64,000 nucleotides of DNA, taken from Owenia fusiformis. Taxonomy: Eukaryota > Annelida > Polychaeta > Sabellida > Oweniidae. The DNA lies in NCBI GenBank assembly GCA_903813345.2, contig CAIIXF020000012.1, positions 6,075,001-6,139,000 of the forward strand, written 5' to 3'. The notes beneath the pieces are model-generated. The model was given only the letters and a program-made list of their open reading frames with translations, ran no database searches and was not told the DNA's origin. This document shows, in pieces, positions 4,864-25,730 of this stretch (position 1 is its first letter; every line of letters begins with the position of its first letter). A program made the position numbers and the translations under genes.

Positions 4864-7800
4864 CTGAAATGAAAGCAAGCAAGCATATAAGTACCTCAGT
4901 CAGAAGATTTAATTTATTATTCAAAGAATTTTTCACTTTTTCACAATTTCTAAACAATCTACACAAATTGTTTCAAATTGTATGAAAGAGGTCCATGTTT
5001 ACTAACATTATGAAATCAAACATCACATATTGTATATACAGATAGCAACTTTTAAAAATTGACAAAAATGAAAAAATGCTCATTTCAAAATGCTCATTAC
5101 AACCTGGTTATCCCCTTACACTATGCAGATATTCAAGCTCTACAAAATCAAAATACAAGAAGGTATATTTAACCAAATATAGATAATTTCAATTTTCAAC
5201 TGATGTGAAGACATTCATGTGTCTGCATTTCATAATTCTGAAATTATATAACATTCAAAATATAAATTCTGCGATGCAATTCAAAAATATAAATTATGAC
5301 AATGAGATATCAAACCTCCTCATTGAGTGCCTTGACTGGTTCCGCCATCTTTACATCATTGAATAAACTATTCACAGAGTTGAGGAGTTGATAGAGTAGA
5401 TTTATGTAAGCTCTTGTATCTCTATGTGAGTCTTTCTTATTGGCCTTATATGTTGCTAGTTTGTTCAGACATTTATAGAGGGCATCTTTGATGTTCAGTC
5501 GCAATTCCGCAGAAAGTGGCAGCGACAGTTTGCTTAACTGAAATCACATGTACAGTATATAAGATGAATATCAATTTCACTGAAATACTGTATTTCCTGC
5601 ATGGTTGACAGGGTAATCGAACAACTAATCCCCTGGACAACTCATCCCAGGGCTCTCACCAGGAAATATTTAGGGTGTGGTGCTAACATCTTCAGAATAA
5701 CCGTTCAATCATGATAAATCATATTTATGTTATATTTTATCCTTTTTACTTAGAGGTTATGTCACTATGACGTGAAATATGCCTGAGTTCTCCCAATATA
5801 TGCCGACCTTGGGAGGCTCTATATTTGGGCAAGAACGAAGGCATATTTCACGTCATAGTGACATAACTGATGTATTACATGCCTTTGTTCCCATGGTTAC
5901 TTTGTATCAATGACGTGACGTCATGATATTATCATGGTTATTAAAGAAATCTAATATCAAAACGAGGTAAGCGGGCTATATCGGGGTAATCGGGCAATAT
6001 CGGTGGATATAGCTCGCTAACTTTCCCATTGACTTCCATACAAATGCTTCGCTAGGTATGTAATACATGCTATTATTGTATATTCAGTCGAGTTTAGACT
6101 GTGGAAACAGTCATGATTTGCCAATAGGGTGTGGAGGGAGCTAAATAGAGTGTGGTGCTGCGCCAAAGTCTAAAAGCCTGGTGAGAGCCCTGCATCCCAT
6201 AGACAACTCAACCCCAGGAGAGGGAATGAGTTGTGTAGGGGATGTGTTGTCCATAAGCCGTTGTCAGTATGGTCAATCAGGTAAACACTACATAAGGTGT
6301 AGGTTGAATGCATTTGTTTTGGATCTCAAAAATGAGGACAACCAAAAAGCTAAAAATTATCAAAAATGGTACAAACCATAGGGATATCATCTGAGGTTGT
6401 CTTCACAATGAAGGATGAATGAATCAACATGTATTGTAGTACTCCTAACTGCCACTTGGTGTCACCACTGGTTATGACACGGGGAAGCTGCTGTATCGCC
6501 CATTTACGATGAGCATCTAGATCCCCTGTCCTGGAATTATGTTATACAATTCAAGGTCATTTGACAGTTATTTTCATAAATGCATACATTTGTAAATATT
6601 TGAAGCCTGTACTCAATATTCGAGGTTTTTCTACATTATCAATTACTTTAGAAATATCATTATAATTTACATTTAAAATGTAATTTAACAAGGTGCTACA
6701 TGAATACATACCCAAATATATTTTTTCCACCAATGATTTCCTGTAAAAGTTTTGTGAACTCCTCAGACGCCTTGGGTGAGAACTGAAAATTGATGAAAAT
6801 ATTGGGAGAACATATTTATGGCAAAGAGTCCTATTGTACATGTAAACAAGACATAAACAAGAACACAAATGTGTACAAAATGTCCCCACCTATTGGTGAT
6901 CCCGTCAAATGGTTATCCTAAAAATGAGTAGACAAGATTTTACCGACACAATTTGAGGACGGAAAATCCAAATGGCCACCTTAAAATTTACCCAGAATGC
7001 CAAAGAATTGGTCAGTTCTACATTTTCATACTAAGAACCACCCCTGAAAATTTGAAATTGATCCATCACACAGTTAACCAGAAAACATGTAAACAAGACT
7101 TTACAGACAAGATTTAAGGACAGAAAATCCAAAATGGCTGCCTTGACATTTACCCAGAATGCCAAAAAACTAATCAGAACTAGATTTTCATACTAAAAAT
7201 CATCCCTGAAAATTTGAAATTGATCAACCAAAAGGTTCACCTAAAAACATGTAGACAAGTCTTTACGGGCACGATTTTAAGACGGAAAATCCAAAATGGC
7301 TGCCTTGACATTTATTCAGAATGCCAAAAAACTAATCAGATCTAGATTTTCACACTAAGAATCATCCCTTAAAATTTCAAATTGATCTACCAAACGGTTC
7401 ACCTGGAAATGCGTAGACAAGACTTTACAGACAAGATTTGACGGCGGAAAATCCAAAATGGCTGCCTTGACATTTACCCAGAATGCCCAAAAACTAATCA
7501 GATCTAGATATTCATACTAAGAATCATCCCTGAAAATTTGAAATTGATCTACCAAACGGTTCACCTGAAAATGCGTAGACAAGAGTTTACAGACAAGATT
7601 TTACGACGGAAAATCCAAAATGGCTGCCTTGACATTTACCCAGAATGCCCAAAAACTAATCAGATCTAGATTTTCATACTAAGAATCATCCCTGAAAATT
7701 TGAAATTGATTTACCAAACGGTTCACCTGAAAACACGTAGACAAGACTTTACAGACAAGATTTTAGGACGGAAAAATCAAAAATGGCCGACAATAAAAAA

Positions 7801-10800
7801 GTGATTATGGATTTTTGCTGATTTCTTTTTACAAAATTATCACATATAACTACTGTTAACAATAAAATAGGCTTTTACAACAAAGGACACATGAAATTAT
7901 TTATAAAGCTACTAAATAGTTAAAGTATGAAAACTGAAAAACACCATTCAATATGATACAAAGTATTATCGTGCGCTAACTTTTCTTAAAACATTCAAAA
8001 TGGCTGACTTGACTGAGCTAACAGGTCCAAAACCTAATCAGATCTAGAATGAAGTGATCTGAACAAGATGTTAAAGTTTGAAAAGCAACTGTGAGGCCGT
8101 TTTTCTTAAAGTTTGCAGACAAGGATTTTAGCATTTGACTTCAAAATGGCCGACAGGAAGTAGGTATCGAGTTAATTTTTTTTCATCCACATCTTTATGC
8201 ACTCATAAGTTATCCCTGAAAATTTGAAGGTGATATCTGTAACGGTTTTGGAGAAAACTGCCGGACGTACGGACGGACAGACGGACGGACGGACGCGCCT
8301 AGGCCGACAATATGGCCCCACACTATGTGGTGGGGACATAATTAGCTATTCTGTATGATATAAAAGGGGGTGGAATATGGACCCATGATTTTACTTTGAC
8401 ATGAGAAATGGGGTCTACTTTGACAATTACAGTTTCCCCCTGTAATTTAAGTTACATTAAAGCCAAATGAATAACAAGGTGTCCAAGTTATTCTAAAATT
8501 GTACATAATGGCACTGAAATTTCACTTCTTCATCCTACGTTGATGAAGATTAAATATGGAGGGGACAGGTATAACAAGGCATTAACATGACAAAATGTCA
8601 CCACCTAGCTGCTCACAATGTTATGAGTTCAATCTGAAGTCAGATTTGAATTTCCGAGAACTCTGTAGATGATTTTGAAAAAATGGTCAATTTGGAACAG
8701 CTTTTTTGACCCTGAGAAGGTCATTGAAGGGGTAATCTCAAATCTAAAGTCAGATTTGAACTTCTGAAAACTTGAAGATGATTTTGAAAAAGAAATTGAT
8801 CAATTTTAAGCAAGATGAAAAAATACCTTTTTGACCTTGAGAAGGTCATTGAAGGTAAAATCTTTTTTGATCTTGAAAATGTCACTGAAGGTCAAATCTA
8901 CATTCAGATTTGAACTTTTGAGAACTTGTAGATGATTTTGAAAAGAAATTGGTCAATTTGAAGCAAGTTGAAAAAAGAACTTTTTTATCCTTTTTTGACC
9001 TTGAAAAAGTCATCGAAGGTCAAATCTTAATTCTAGAGTCAGACTTCTGAGAACTTGTAGATCATTTTGAAAACCAGAACAACGGCAACGCCAAAGCGTA
9101 GCGAATCCCATCGAACAGAAATGGCTGGCATTTTTACAAACGAACAGCAAATATCATAAAACAACACATCAGAAAGGCCACCATTTTCAAAATGGTTGCT
9201 CACTAGCCAAGTTGTCATCAGAAGAAATAATATGCTTTTAAGTAGCCACCTCTAAAATTTTTGAAAAATCGCACACATACTTGTAAAATAACACACATAA
9301 AAATGTTGGCCATTTTTCAAAATGGCCAACTACTCCCCAAAGTTTTATTAGACAATGTGCCATGCTTAAAGTATTCACATATCAAATATGAACAAAATCA
9401 CTCTACTACTTTTCGAGTTATAGTAAAATACGTTAAAATGGTGGTCATTTTTCAAAATGGCCACCTTCTACCAAAAGTGTCATTAGAAATAGACAGTGTG
9501 CCATGCTTATAGTATTCACATACCAAATATGAACAAAATCGCTCCACTACTTTTCGAGTTATAGTAAAATACGTTAAAATGGCGGCCATTTTGAAAACAA
9601 TTTTGAAAAATGGCCGCCTTCTACCAAAAGTGTCATAGGACAGTATGCCATGCTTATAGGATTCACATACCAAATATGAACAAAATCGCTCCAATACTTT
9701 TCGAGTTGTAGTAAAATATGTTAAAATGGCGGCCATTTTCAAAACTGTTTTCAAAATGGCCGCCTTCTACCAAAAGTGTCATAGGACAGTGTGCCATGCT
9801 TATAGTATTCACATACCAAATATGAACAAAAACGCTCCACTACTTTTCGAGTTATAGTAAAATACGTTAAAATGGCGGCCATTTTTCAAAATGGCCGCCT
9901 TCTACCAAAAGTGTCTTTAGAAAGTGTGCAATGCTTATAGTATTCACATACCAAATATGAACAAAATCGCTCCACTATTTTTTGAGTTACAGCAAAATCG
10001 TAAAATGACGAGTAAAGGCCGCCATTTTCAAGATGGCTGCCATGTGCTTCTTTAATATCTACATTTGTAGCATTATAATGTCCTTTATAATTTTTTTACA
10101 TTTAAAACATATTGCTATTACAGTTATACATATTGCAACTAAATAACTGTAAAATCGGCACTAAAATGGCCGCCATTTTGAAATGAGCGGCCATTTTGAA
10201 AATCGGTTTTTGAGCAGAACTTCTATCCCCATAGGGTTTATGTGTACAAAATATGAACAAAATCGGGCCAACGGTATTTGAGTTATAGCCCGGACGGACG
10301 GACGGACGTACGTACGTACGGACGGACGGACGGAGGCGTTCCCTATATCCCTCCGAACTTTGTTCGATGGGATAAAAATTAAAGTCAGTCTGAACAGTAT
10401 TTGTCAAGTTATTGGAAGTTGTAAGAAATTGTTACAGACGCCGATCACCAACCGCCGTCACTAAAAATGGAGACCATAACAATATGTCAACACTTTTTGG
10501 TGGTGACATAATGATATACCCTGTGAAATGCAATTTCTCCAAAACAGTAAATTATTTTTCTTTAATCTTGAAAATACTCAAGTAAAAACTGAGTCTTCAT
10601 TATAACAGTTTTGCAAAAATCTGACATTTTGGCCCAGCCCAGCACAACCCCTCGGGTTACTTACAGCTTGTATGATCCTATCCAGTGTATTTGTATTGGT
10701 GACACCGTTAAACATAACAGTAGATGATTGGTTCATAATTAAACTTTTCGCTACTGCCACTTCCAAGTCTTTGTCATCAGTTTTCTCAACAAAGGCAACC

Positions 10801-13800
10801 AAACCATTAGTCTGAAATACAATGTTAAGCCATCATATAATACTTAAACCACAACATGAGTACAATTTTAAATAAGCATTTGTGATTTAAAATTGGCTAC
10901 AAGGGCTAAGCGAGTATGTGCAACAGCAATTGAAATATATGAAATACTCATTAAACAAACATGGCTCAGGCCAGTCATGCTTCAATTTTGGCCTAGAGTT
11001 AAGTGAGTATATGCAACAGCAATTGAAATATGAAATACTCATGAAACAAACATGGCTCAGGCCAGTCATGCTTCAATTTTGGCTAGAGTTAAGCGAGTAT
11101 ATGCAACAGCAATTGAAATATGAAATACTCATGAAACAAACATGGCTCAGGCCAGTCATGCTTCAATTTTGGCCTAGAGTTAAGCGAGTATGTGCAACAG
11201 CAATTGAAATATATGAAATACTCATGAAACAAACATGGCTCAGGCCAGTCATGCTTCAATTTTGGCCTAGAGCTAAGCGAGTATATGCAACAGCAATTGA
11301 AATATGAAATACTCATAAAACAAACATGGCTCAGGCCAGTCATGCTTCAATTTTGGCCTAGAGCTAAGTGAGTATATGCAACAGCAATTGAAATATGAAA
11401 TACTCATAAAACAAACATGGCTCAGGCCAGTCATGCTTCAATTTTGGCCTAGAGCTAAGCGTGTATATGCAATAGCAATTGAAATATGAAATACTCATAC
11501 AACAAACATGGCTCAGGCCAGTCATGCTTCAATTTTGGCCTAGAGTTAAGCGAGTATATGCAACAGCAATTGAAATATATGAAATACTTATAAAACAAAC
11601 ATGGCTCAGGCCAGTCATGCTTCAATTTTGGCCTAGAGCTAAGCGAGTATATGCAACAGCAATTGAAATATATGAAATACTCATAAAACAAACATGGCTC
11701 AGGCCAGTCATGCTTCAATTTTGGCCTAGAGTTAAGCGAGTATATGCAACAGCAATTGAAATATGAAATACTCATTAAAAAAAGGCTCAGGTCAGTCATG
11801 CTTCAATTTTGGCCTAGAGTTAAGCGAGTATATGCAACAGCAATTGAAATATGAAATACTCATAAAACAAACATGGCTCAGGCCAGTCATGCTTCAATTT
11901 TGGCCTAGAGCTAAGTGAGTATATGCAACAGCAATTGAAATATGAAATACTCATAAAACAAACATGGCTCAGGCCAGTCATGCTTCAATTTTGGCCTAGA
12001 GCTAAGTAAGTATGTGCAATAGCAATTGAAATATGAAATACTCATACAACAAACATGGCTCAGGCCAGTCATGCTTCAATTTTGGCCTAGAGTTAAGCGA
12101 GTATATGCAACAGCAATTGAAATATGAAATACTTATAAAACAAACATGGCTCAGGCCAGTCATGCTTCAATTTTGGCCTAGAGCTAAGCGTGTATATGCA
12201 ACAGCAATTGAAATATATGAAATACTTATAAAACAAACATGGCTCAGGCCAGTCATGCTTCAATTTTGGCCTAGAGTTAAGCGAGTATATGCAACAGCAA
12301 TTGAAATATGAAATACTCATAAAAACATGGCTCAGGTCAGTCATGCTTCAATTTTGGCCTAGAGTTAAGCGAGTATATGCAACAGCAATTGAAATATGAA
12401 ATACTCATAAAACAAACATGGCTCAGGCCAGTCATGCTTTAATTTTGGCCTAGAGTTAAGCGACTATATGCAACAGCAATTGAAATATGAAATACTCATA
12501 AAACAAACATGGCTCAGGCCAGTCATGCTTCAATCTTGGCCTAGAGCTAAGTAAGTATATGCAACAGCAAATGAAATATATGAAATACTCATAAAAACAT
12601 GGCTCAGGTCAGTCATGCTTCAATTTTGGCTTAGAGCTAAGCAAGTATGTGCAATAGCAATTGAAATATGATATACTCATAAAAACATGGCTCAGGCCAG
12701 TCATGCTTCAATTTTGGCCAAGAGCTAAGCGAGAATATGCAACAGCAATTGAAATATGAAATACTCATACAACAAACATGGCTCAGGCCAGTCATGCTTC
12801 AATTTTGGCCTAGAGTTAAGCGAGTATATGCAACAGCAATTGAAATATGAAATACTCATACAACAAACATGGCTCAGGCCAGTCATGCTTCAATTTTGGC
12901 CTAGAGTTAAGCGAGAATATGCAACAGCAATTGAAATATGAAATACTCATACAACAAACATGGCTCAGGCCAGTCACGCTTCAATTTTGGCCTAGAGTTA
13001 AGCGAGTATATGCAACAGCAATTGAAATATGAAATACTCATAAAACAAACATGGCTCAGGCCAGTCATGCTTCAATTTTGGCCTAGAGTTAAGCGACTAT
13101 ATGCAACAGCAATTGAAATATATGAAATACTCATAAAACAAACATGGCTCAGGCCAGTCATGCTTCAATTTAGGCCTAGAGCTAAGCGAGTATATGCAAC
13201 AGCAATTGAAATATATGAAATACTCATAAAAAAAACATGGCTCAGGCCAGTCATGCTTCAATTTTGGCCTAGAGCTAAGCGAGAATATGCAACAGCAATT
13301 GAAATATGAAATACTCATAAAACAAACATGGCTCAGGCCAGTCATGCTTCAATTTTGGCCTAGAGCTAAGCGAGAATATGCAACAGCAAGTGAAATAATA
13401 TGAAATACTCATAAAACAAACATGGCTCAGGCCAGTCATGCTTCAATTTTGGCCTAGAGCTAAGCGAGAATATGCAACATCAATTGAAATATGAAATACT
13501 CATAAAACAAACATGGCTCAGGCCAGTCATGCTTCAATTTTGGCCTAGAGCTAAGCGAGAATATGCAACAGCAATTGAAATATGAAATACTCATACAACA
13601 AACATGGCTCAGGCCAGTCATGCTTCAATTTTGGCCTAGAGCTAAGCGAGTATATGCAATAGCAATTGAAATATGAAATACTCATACAACAAACATGGCT
13701 CAGGCCAGTCATGCTTCAACTTTGGCCTAGAGCTAAGCGAGAATATGCAACAGCAATTGAAATATGAAATACTCATACAACAAACATGGCTCAGGCCAGT

Positions 13801-16800
13801 CATGCTTCAACTTTGGCCTAGAGCTAAGTAAGTATATGCAACAGCAATTGAAATATATGAAATACTCATTAAAACAAACATGGCTCAGGCCAGTCATGCT
13901 TCAATTTTGGCCTAGAGCTAAGCGAGAATATGCAACAGCAATTGAAATATGAAATACTCATACAACAAACATGGCTCAGGCCAGTCACGCTTCAATTTTG
14001 GCCTAGAGTTAAGCGTGTATATGCAACAGCAATTGAAATATATGAAATACTCATAAAAACATGGCTCAGGCCAGTCATGCTTCAATTTTGGCCTAGAGTT
14101 AAGCGAGTATATGCAACAGCAATTGAAATATGAAATACTCATAAAAACATGGCTCAGGCCAGTCATGCTTCAATTTTGGCCTAGAGCTAAGCGAGAATAT
14201 GCAACAGCAATTGAAATATGAAATACTCATAAAACAAACATGGCTCAGGCCAGTCATGCTTCAATTTTGGCCTAGAGCTAAGCGAGAATATGCAACAGCA
14301 ATTGAAATATGAAATACTCATACAACAAACATGGCTCAGGCCAGTCATGCTTCAATTTTGGCCTAGAGCTAAGCGAGTATATGCAACAGCAATTGAAATA
14401 TATGAAATACTCATAAAACAAACATGGCTCAGGCCAGTCATGCTTCAATTTTGGCCTAGAGTTTAGTGAGTATATGCAACAGCAATTGAAATATATGAAA
14501 TACTCATAAAACAAACATGGCTCAGGCCAGTCACGCTTCAATTTTGCCTAGAGCTAAGCGAGTATATGCAACAGCAATTGAAATATATGAAATACTCATA
14601 AAACAAACATGGCTCAGGCCAGTCATGCTTCAATTTTGGCCTAGAGTTTAGTGAGTATATGCAACAGCAATTGAAATATATGAAATACTCATAAAACAAA
14701 CATGGCTCAGGCCAGTCACGCTTCAATTTAGGCCTAGAGCTAAGCGAGTATATGCAACAGCAATTGAAATATGAAATACTCTAAAAACAAACATGGCTCA
14801 GGCCAATCATGCTTCAATTTTGGCCTAGAGTTTAGTGAGTATATGCAACTGCAATTGAAATATATGAAATACTCATAAAACAAACATGGCTCAGGTCAGT
14901 CATGCTTCAATTTTGGCCTAGAGTTAAGCGAGTATATGCAACAGCAATTGAAATAGATGAAATACTCATAAAACAAACATGGCTCAGGCCAGTCATGCTT
15001 CAATTTTGGCCTAGAGTTAAGCGAGTATATGCAACAGCAATTGAAATATGAAATACTCATAAAACAAACATGGCTCAGGCCAGTCACGCTTCAATTTTGG
15101 CCTAGGGTTAAGCGAGTATATGCAACAGCAATTGAAATATGATATACTCATAAAACAAACATGGCTCAGGCCAGTCATGCTTCAATTTTGGCCTAGAGTT
15201 AAGCGACTATATGCAACAGCAATTGAAATATGAAATACTCATAAAACAAACATGGCTCAGGCCAGTCATGCTTCAATTTTGGCCTAGAGTTAAGCGACTA
15301 TATGCAACAGCAATTGAAATATATGAAATACTCATAAAACAAACATGGCTCAGGCCAGTCATGCTTCAATTTTGGCCTAGAGTTAAGCAACTATATGCAA
15401 CAGCAATTGAAATATGAAATACTCATAAAACAAACATGGCTCAGGCCAGTCATGCTTCAATTTAGGCCTAGAGTTAAGCGAGTATGTGCAATAGCAATTG
15501 AAATATATGAAATACTCATAAAACAAACATGGCTCAGGCCAGTCATGCTTCAATTTTGGCCTAGAGTTAAGCGAGTATATGCAACAGCAATTGAAATATG
15601 AAATACTCATAAAACAAACATGGCTCAGGCCAGTCATGCTTCAATTTTGGCCTAGAGTTAAGCGACTATATGCAACAGCAATTGAAATATGAAATACTCA
15701 TAAAACAAACATGGCTCAGGCCAGTCATGCTTCAATCTTGGCCTAGAGCTAAGTAAGTATATGTAACAGCAATTGAAATATATGAAATACTCATAAAACA
15801 AACATGGCTCAGGCCAGTCATGCTTCAATTTTGGCCTAGAGTTAAGCGACTATATGCAACAGCAATTGAAATATGAAATACTCATAAAACAAACATGGCT
15901 CAGGCCAGTCATGCTTCAATTTTGGCCTAGAGTTAAGCGACTATATGCAACAGCAATTGAAATATATGAAATACTCATAAAACAAACATGGCTCAGGCCA
16001 GTCATGCTTCAATTTTGGCCTAGAGTTAAGCGACTATATGCAACAGCAATTGAAATATGAAATACTCATAAAACAAACATGGCTCAGGCCAGTCATGCTT
16101 CAATTTTGGCCTAGAGTTAAGCGACTATATGCAACAGCAATTGAAATATATGAAATACTCATAAAACAAACATGGCTCAGGCCAGTCATGCTTCAATTTT
16201 GGCCTAGAGCTAAGTAAGTATGTGCAATAGCAATTGAAATATGAAATACTCATACAACAAACATGGCTCAGGCCAGTCATGCTTCAATTTTGGCCTAGAG
16301 TTAAGCGAGTATATGCAACAGCAATTGAAATATGAAATACTTATAAAACAAACATGGCTCAGGCCAGTCATGCTTCAATTTTGGCCTAGAGCTAAGCGTG
16401 TATATGCAACAGCAATTGAAATATGAAATACTCATAAAACAAACATGGCTCAGGCCAGTCATGCTTCAATTTTGGCCTAGAGTTAAGCGACTATATGCAA
16501 CAGCAATTGAAATATGAAATACTCATAAAACAAACATGGCTCAGGTCAGTCATGCTTCAATTTTGGCTAGAGTTAAGCGACTATATGCAACAGCAATTGA
16601 AATATGAAATACTCATAAAACAAACATGGCTCAGGCCAGTCATGCTTCAATTTTGGCCTAGAGCTAAGTGAGTATATGCAACAGCAATTGAAATATATGA
16701 AATACTCATAAAACAAACATGACTCAGGCCAGTCATGCTTCAATTTTGGCCTAGAGCTAAGCGAGTATATGCAACAGCAATTGAAATATATGAAATACTC

Positions 16801-19800
16801 ATAAAACAAACATGGCTCAGGCCAGTCATGCTTCAATTTTGGCCTAGAGTTAAGTGAGTATATGCAACAGCAATTGAAATATATGAAATACTCATAAAAC
16901 AAACATGGCTCAGGCCAGTCATGCTTCAATTTTGGCCTAGAGCTAAGCGAGAATATGCAACAGCAATTGAAATATGAAATACTCATAAAACAAACATGGC
17001 TCAGGCCAGTCATGCTTCAATCTTGGCCTAGAGCTAAGTAAGTATATGTAACAGCAATTGAAATATATGAAATACTCATAAAACAAACATGGCTCAGGCC
17101 AGTCATGCTTCAATTTTGGCTAGAGTTAAGCGAGTATATGCAACAGCAATTGAAATATGAAATACTCATAAAACAAACATGGCTCAGGCCAGTCATGCTT
17201 CAATTTTGGCCTAGAGCTAAGTGAGTATATGCAACAGCAATTGAAATATATGAAATACTCATAAAACAAACATGGCTCAGGCCAGTCATGCTTCAATTTT
17301 GGCCTAGAGTTAAGTGAGTATATGCAACAGCAATTGAAATATATGAAATACTCATAAAACAAACATGGCTCAGGCCAGTCATGCTTCAGTTTTGGCCTAG
17401 AGTTAAGTGAGTATATGCAACAGCAATTGAAATATATGAAATACTCATAAAACAAACATGGCTCAGGCCAGTCATGCTTCAACTTTGGCCTAGAGTTAAG
17501 CGAGTATATGCAACAGCAATTGAAATATATGAAATACTCATAAAACAAACATGGCTCAGGCCAGTCATGCTTCAATTTTGGCCTAGAGCTAAGCGAGTAT
17601 ATGCAACAGCAATTGAAATATATGAAATACTCATAAAACAAACATGGCTCAGGCCAGTCATGCTTCAATTTTGGCCTAGAGTTAAGGAGTATGTGCAATA
17701 GCAATTGAAATGAAACAAACTTACCAACTGCAATGCAGCACTGTGTAACAGGCTTGACTTCTTACTGCAGTCTTTCAGCAACTTCTCTAAAATGTTCTTT
17801 GACATGATCACCTTTATCTAAAAATAATAATAATACTCAGGTTATCCTCTAAATAACTCCAATAATCCTCTAGTGAATTTAAGGTTAAAGGCCCCATATA
17901 AAGTTTAGGCCACATTGGCTTAAATTACAGTCCTACCAAATGTCATCAAAATGTGCTATATGTTAAACTTTTCAATTTACATGAAAAGTAATATTTGAAT
18001 GCTTAAACTATATTTTCAAACTTTATATGGGGCCTATATATCCTCTAAACAACTAAGGTTAATCTTAAACAACTCGATTTATCCTCAATACAACTTGAGT
18101 TGTCTTCTAAACAACGTTAGCCTTCAAACAACTCAAGCTTTCATCTGAACAAATTAAATTATCATCTAAAGAACTCTTTCAATCCTCAAAACAACTCAAG
18201 TAAGCCTCTAAAAATCAAATATCTCTACAAACTTTAAAGCAGAAATGAAAACTTCATATTTCAGTTTGTGATGGTTTAAGACTCAGTAGAGTGTACCTGT
18301 TCAAAAATTGAAGTCAGTCTAAACAGTATTTGTAAAGTTATTGGAAGTTGTAAGAAATTGTTACAGACGCCGATCGCCAACCACCAAACACCAACCATCA
18401 ACTGCCGATCACGGTCACAAAAAATGGAGACCATAACAATGTCACCACTTTTTGGTGGTGACATAAAAATATATATATTTCAGTATGAGAAGGTCTTAGT
18501 GAATGTACGAAAGTTAGCCTCGACAAACTTTTAAGCATGAATGAAAAACTTCATATTTCAGTAAGTGACGGTTTAGACGCAGTAGAGTGAACATGTACCT
18601 GTTCTGGCTTAGTAGCTGCATTCAAAGCAATCTCAACAAGCTGGTAACACAGGAACACTCTGTTAGGGGTGCTGTTACCCGATGCTAGTTTTCCTGGAAA
18701 GAGAATCAAATATAGCCACATTTATTCAACTTATTGAACATTGATTGTTATGGTTACCAAAAGAAACTGAACGTCTGCAATTTTGAAATATAGAATAACT
18801 TCATTTTTTATTTAGCCAGAATCAATGAAAACACAGAAAGAAATCCTGTACTTAGGGTTGATGTGAAAAAGTCAATCTAACCCAAGTGGGGATCGAACCC
18901 ATGAAATATGGTATTTTTACCAAGTTATCGTTTGCAATATTACTATTACATTTCTATAATATTACCATCGATAATGTTGTTCCAGAAAGCTTTCAGGTTG
19001 TCTATTGAAGTAAGAGTGGTTAAAGCCGTGGTGACAAGTTGCTTGCAGACCTCATGTATTACAGGGTGTTCACTAGTGCTGGCCTAGAGGAAATACAATA
19101 TACATAAGCATTATGTTCTTGAAGGTTTTAATACAGGGTTAACTGAAAGGAAAATATGCTGATCTCCTTAGGGACCACATTGAAGGATGGACATGTTTCA
19201 CTGAGGATAAACCCGGTATCTTAAATCGCCCCACACATGACAGATGTATCCGATACCTACTGAAGTTCTAGGTATCATATTCTTTGTAATAAATTCTCCA
19301 AGGTCAAGGTCAGTGTGAAATATGAAGCTGATTGGTCAAAAAATTCACGATCAAAAATGGTGGTAAATTTAAATTGATGTGGCGCAGCTGTCAGCATACT
19401 AAAGGTTATAATGACAAAGGTTAATGGTATCAACTTTTTTTTTTTTTTTTTTATTTTCGGCAACTGATGACTTTTTGACAAAATTCCTAATGTAAATTGA
19501 AGAAGCCTACCATCATGATTTGAGCAATGTGGCTGTAGTGCTTCGATGCAAGAAGGTCAGATGTTCCCCATTTTGTGCTCAATATCTCCTTCACACTTTT
19601 CTATAAATAAAAAAATTTACATGAGTAAAGTACATGTAGATATCGAACCAGAGTTGTTCATAAGAGGATGCACTCTTCTATCCATTAACTTCAAAGGAGT
19701 CAGTCCCTAACTCTGATAATTGAAAAGTAAATGTGTCAACACACTTTGAAAACAATTCCTTATTTACTAGAAAGCAGAATAATTGCTTTAGGTGTATGGA

Positions 19801-25264: not shown

Positions 25265-25730
25265 TATTACTTTTCAAATATGACGTACTCCTCCTTCCCC
25301 GCATTGTCTACATCTTTCAGTTTTGCACAAAGAGTGCACTCCTAATGTCCCTAGAAACAGTTGGTGCATTTAAAGGACAAAACTAATGATCAAAAGAAGT
25401 CCGGTGTAATTTACAAAATTGATTGTAAAGACTGTATTGCCACTTATGTAGGTGAAACAAAGCGGGAACTAGTTACTAGAATCAGAGAACATCGTAGACC
25501 CACATTACTGTCGACTGGAGGTCTTGCTTCTGCGGTTATTGAACATTCCATGGAATATGATCATAATATAAACTGGAACAATGTAAAAATCATTGATAAT
25601 GAGAGTCATGATCTTAAACGTAGGGTTAAGGAAGCAATTCATATTAAAACAATGCAACCTAAAATGAACAGAGATAATGGGTATCAGTTGGACAATTTGT
25701 ATCATAAAATATTGTAAATTAAGAATGGTA
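25265..25730 (+). mobile_element. Penelope-like retroelement, 5'-truncated, GIY-YIG endonuclease end
   Basis: The open frame at 25,361-25,717 encodes 118 residues with SGVIYKIDCKDCIATYVGET, then TRIREHRR and an NGYQLDNLY tail. This is the C-terminal GIY-YIG nuclease typical of Penelope-like elements, which follows their reverse transcriptase; upstream bases from about 25,265 look like the preceding linker in other frames. The reverse transcriptase is absent. The 3' end resumes at 31,205 after a 5.5 kb insertion. Confidence 0.8.

Follow-up and report, generated by a model that had tools for sequence, protein, structure and literature searches.

The window, a 64,000-nucleotide stretch of the Owenia fusiformis genome (positions 6,075,001 to 6,139,000 of contig CAIIXF020000012.1), includes on its minus strand an intron of a gene matching PF04931 (DNA_pol_phi), which we take to be the MYBBP1A family. 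Almost all of this intron is occupied by a tandem array. The intron, the coding pieces on either side and the neighbouring arrays are as follows, in window coordinates.

17725..17817, minus strand: coding piece upstream of the intron, 31 amino acids; matches PF04931 only when joined to the next exon
10812..17724, minus strand: the whole MYBBP1A intron, 6,913 bp, GT-AG, phase 0, read from the sequence; the joined flanking exons match PF04931
17712..17724, minus strand: the 13 bases at the donor end, GTAAGTTTGTTTC, read from the sequence
10907..17711, minus strand: minisatellite array with 74 complete units, 88-94 bp in length and mainly 91 or 93, from TRF and unit alignment
starting at 17682: the 75th, partial unit of the array, from unit alignment
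10812..10906, minus strand: unique remnant at the acceptor end, with no kinship to the unit detected in alignments against shuffled sequences
10671..10811, minus strand: exon downstream of the intron, 47 amino acids; PF04931 positions 309-349
6928-7787 and 9300-10007: arrays with units of 162 bp and 135/146 bp, respectively, on the downstream side of the MYBBP1A region
2449-2801: 77-bp array, 4.6 copies

Read on the minus strand from 17724 down to 10812, the intron begins with GTAAGT and ends with TTTCAG, and the exon ends that flank it are in phase 0 on both sides. The upstream coding piece (17725..17817) returns no Pfam match by itself, and the downstream exon alone scores 14.3 bits against a cut-off of 27.6. 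Joined, the two give one continuous PF04931 match over positions 275-350 (40.3 bits, E 1.6e-10), and the cut-off is also passed by other pieces of the gene. A genome-wide PF04931 search returned five matches at E <=10 (six scored candidates), all on the minus strand of the same contig and spanning its positions 6,023,377 to 6,096,095. Since all matches fall in this one region, a single copy of MYBBP1A is seen, no second copy having appeared in the search, and the gene here is long.

TRF reports the array as a row of period 91 (10907-17711, 74.3 copies, 94% matches, 1% indels, score 11760) and again as a row of two-unit period 184 (10905-17711, score 11771). When cut into units, it yields 75 unit starts, comprising the 74 full units and the partial last one; with 74 copies, chance is not at issue. 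The array lies wholly within the intron as predicted from the sequence, and makes up 98.4% of its length, leaving 95 bases next to the acceptor and 13 next to the donor. The preliminary description of about 74 near-identical 91/93-bp units filling almost an entire intron, here placed between two in-frame DNA_pol_phi exons, is thus borne out. Its edges require a small correction: the start had been put at 10893, with some 80 and 12 bases left over, and is found at 10907.

Genomic distribution of the repeat unit

The assembly (525 contigs) was searched for further copies of the unit, as the preliminary description had proposed. A 20-mer of the unit, allowed up to two mismatches, has 70 forward sites genome-wide, all within the array, and one reverse site outside it at two mismatches; 70 of 71 sites therefore fall in the array, and the remaining one is at the level of the backward control, which also gave one site. 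A 30-mer of the 91-bp class, allowed up to three mismatches, placed 43 of 43 sites in the array with none for the control, and a 401-bp array query placed 20 of 20 among the matches listed there. No second locus was found at these mismatch limits, which copies more diverged than 2 in 20 or 3 in 30 would escape, as would any copy within a withheld stretch, read as N. The 91-bp unit looks private to the locus. The array consists of head-to-tail copies of one unit longer than 6 bp and is, within the mismatch limits, confined to a single locus, as expected of a minisatellite rather than a genome-wide satellite; recurrence at hundreds of loci, which the preliminary description had named as the mark of an ordinary satellite, is not the case.

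The window does carry dispersed families. Probes for the 162-bp, 135/146-bp and 77-bp arrays have 9,799, 9,424 and 85 sites genome-wide, respectively, each with a control of 0. It is conceivable in such company that the 91-bp array is likewise a dispersed satellite or was brought in by a mobile element, in the manner of the Helentron-carried, satDNA-like arrays reported from the Pacific oyster (PMC7492417). Such an origin calls for copies of the unit at other loci, and none was found within the mismatch limits, so that we consider it extremely unlikely. The oyster arrays are reported to be short, scattered through an invertebrate genome and dispersed by mobile elements (PMC7492417); in the first two respects they resemble the 77-, 135/146- and 162-bp neighbours. 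These three other larger tested arrays of the window are dispersed families, unlike the 91-bp array.

The 85 sites of the 77-bp array, obtained with a 27-base probe, form short arrays at 18 places. Many of these places share the same small set of unit variants, which suggests an array carried inside a mobile element. Elsewhere in the window, an open frame on the plus strand (25355-25717) contains YKIDCKDCIATYVGETKRELVTRIREHR and presumably resembles the GIY-YIG endonuclease piece of a Penelope-like element. Two near-identical stretches of about 45 bases, noticed by eye, flank the intron from outside, one on each side (10407-10452 and 18336-18381), and perhaps represent a dispersed repeat.

Long tandem arrays are more common in this genome than the preliminary description had assumed. 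A sample of 20 10-kb blocks, spaced evenly over C1-C3, includes 13 with an array of period >=20 and length >=200 (covering 16,811 of 200,000 bases) and two with an array longer than 4 kb; on the strength of these two, multi-kilobase arrays are not rare here. One of the two (L020 5083-10000, C2:8,005,083 onward) has a 96-bp period and, when extended, about 95 units over 9,131 bp. One plus-strand frame stays open throughout its sampled part, with a length of at least 1,657 codons, and minus-strand frames of 1,308 and 432 codons are also present; given these long frames it may be coding, conceivably for a long repeat protein. The other, a 186/558-bp array for which TRF gives a period-1116 row of 11,344 bp, shows no 150-codon frame in the portion examined. 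Arrays that are both private and intron-filling, for which a sample of 20 blocks is too small to give a rate, may be rarer than multi-kilobase arrays in general.

Unit variation and growth of the array

Spacings between successive unit starts (n=74) are mostly 91 (37) or 93 bp (24), with smaller numbers at 90 (4), 88 (4), 92 (3) and 94 (2). The 75 units comprise 59 distinct sequences, and pairs of units differ on average at 5.5% of alignment columns, the partial unit excluded. The two main length classes differ by one AT step of 2 bp, which is carried by 31 of the 74 units. Such a step is obtainable by simple slippage, and the earlier reading of the two classes as a sign of block amplification is not sustained.

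Compared with shuffled orders, neighbouring units resemble each other more closely at lags 1, 2 and 7 (differences as low in 1, 3 and 2 of 500 shuffles, respectively) and weakly so at lag 6 (19 of 500), but not at lags 3, 4 and 5 (374, 72 and 307 of 500). Four exact self-repeats of at least 230 bp are present, whereas 100 shuffles of the unit order gave 0.09 on average and never more than 2. The longest measures 277 bp with its copies 4,208 bp apart, the second longest 261 bp with copies 184 bp apart, and six in all reach 180 bp. Diagonals of two consecutive identical units number 3 against a mean of 0.15, a value reached in none of 500 shuffles; with one difference allowed, there are 10 consecutive pairs against 4.8 (19 of 500 shuffles reach 10). 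Once two or three differences are permitted, the excess is no longer clear (39 against 39.5 in one such comparison). The same holds for runs of at least three units; four-unit runs within two differences, for instance, number 2 against 0.62 (64 of 500 shuffles). The block-wise sharing of variants noted in the preliminary description is therefore real, in that self-repeats and identical pairs exceed those of the shuffles, but modest. The recent, large block amplification drawn from it is not shown, because the excess is confined to short near-identical runs and disappears in the longer and looser ones. The pattern fits an array that grew in small increments, now and then with transfer over a distance, rather than in a single large and recent amplification.

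Positional polarity along the array was also considered. The last window of 12 units is more uniform than in shuffled orders (5 of 1000), yet the most uniform 12-unit window anywhere in the array is unremarkable (117 of 1000), and polarity was set aside. The ratio of observed to expected CpG is 0.25 in the array versus 0.58 in the rest of the window. At unit columns 5-6 the CpG is lost in 19 of 74 units, which read TG (11), CA (2) or TA (6); decay by deamination accounts for TG and CA, and does not by itself account for TA.

Long arrays are hard to assemble, and the unit number could conceivably have been wrongly expanded or collapsed. The lengths of the exact self-repeats, at most 277 bp with six reaching 180 bp, and the 59 distinct sequences among 75 units argue against such an artefact. 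With repeats this short and units this varied, accurate reads of some hundred bases should be placeable, and we regard an error of this kind as quite improbable.

Taken as genuine, the array would have started with the tandem duplication of some 91 bp of MYBBP1A intron DNA that was until then single-copy. Growth would then have proceeded by unequal exchange or slippage in steps of one and two units, a few units being transferred now and then from one region of the array to a distant one, until the array took up nearly all of the intron.

Intron ends, splicing and RNA

The remnant at the acceptor end carries TTTCAG and CTTAAC, the latter of which we take to be a branch-point-like motif. At the donor end, GTTTGTTT, the part of the 13 bases beside the donor GTAA, recurs in the unit by our reading, with other alignments possible; the true array edge may for this reason lie nearer to the splice site than 17711. 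This recurrence, together with an acceptor remnant of 95 bp, approximately the length of one unit, would be expected if the unit were the ancestral intron itself, multiplied with both its ends, the entire intron then being a single decayed array. The acceptor side does not bear this out. In three alignment modes, 186, 468 and 173 of 1000 shuffled sequences score as high against the unit as does 10812-10904, and so do 30, 79 and 39 of 489 real 93-mers from the window. The remnant as a decayed unit is accordingly unsupported, and an array made of the entire ancestral intron appears hardly credible. With no kinship to the unit detected, the remnant does not reveal the seed sequence of the array.

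The sense strand of the array contains no donor-like site of at least 5 bits and no AATAAA, versus 79 and 27, respectively, in 17.8 kb of the remaining gene region, exons included. The donor-site weights are generic consensus frequencies. Lacking both signals, the array should be tolerated within an intron. Purging of sense donors was considered as a cause of their absence from all 74 units. Only 4 of 273 possible substitutions would create a donor, which leads to an expectation of 0.54 among the 37 observed and a probability of 0.58 of finding none, well within chance. The absence of donors is a matter of compatibility with the intron; with no donors in the consensus unit and just 0.54 expected from its variants, it demonstrates neither selection nor a lack of it. 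On the other strand, 20 of 74 units carry donor-like sites; these stem from 2 observed substitutions, where 0.41 would be expected, and would matter only if antisense RNA is made.

The preliminary description had suggested effects on transcription speed, splicing or R-loop formation. The last of these is not favoured by a GC content of 37%, a sense-strand GC skew of 0.01 and the lack of any run of three G. Nor is there a special RNA structure in the three units folded, for which z relative to shuffled sequence is -0.42 and -0.47 (two sense units) and -1.26 (one other-strand unit). The array would be transcribed with its intron and then spliced out, given that the splice signals outside it look intact, and no step in gene regulation would be required.

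These observations bear on the proposal that the array is functional, its unit number tuning MYBBP1A expression by slowing transcription, altering splicing or forming R-loops. A precedent exists in the human ABCA7 intronic VNTR, for which a correlation of length with both the skipping of exon 19 and expression is reported (PMC5954066), and the 6.8-kb array lies only 13 bases from its donor site. By this analogy a role for the array could be imagined; the sense strand without donor-like sites of at least 5 bits, the unexceptional folds of the three units, the GC skew and absence of G runs unfavourable to R-loops, and the lack of any sign that splice variants are purged all weigh against it, and we judge it unlikely.

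Known systems and meaning of the array

We favour, at a probability of about 0.77, a locus-private intronic minisatellite that grew in place from single-copy intron DNA, is neutral and is spliced out; its neutrality, mode of growth and removal by splicing are what we infer from the features above. The array is real and of an ordinary repeat kind, and no sign of function was found in it.

With minisatellite VNTR loci in general, the array shares a tandem arrangement and a unit of at least 7 bp (PMC8096271). The likeness to the ABCA7 VNTR lies in a minisatellite within a gene intron and in similar total length, alleles of the latter reportedly exceeding 10,000 bp (PMC6857246). That VNTR has a 25-bp unit of high GC, and both its polymorphism in length and its correlation with splicing have been measured (PMC5954066, PMC6857246); the MYBBP1A array has a 91/93-bp unit and 37% GC, and is known from the sequence of one haplotype. 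Our literature search found no paper joining MYBBP1A with a minisatellite. If variable, the array is a new member of the intronic VNTR kind, and otherwise an intronic minisatellite.

MYBBP1A is presumably a gene of ribosome production. One could speculate that the array varies in length and thereby determines the speed or completeness of removal of this intron, such that individuals differ in MYBBP1A output, a suggestion we hold to be very doubtful; a regulatory role would matter only if unit number varies and tracks expression or splicing. The array stands as a clean example of a minisatellite seemingly private to one intron and, given several long-read genomes, could be used to follow array turnover as a marker.
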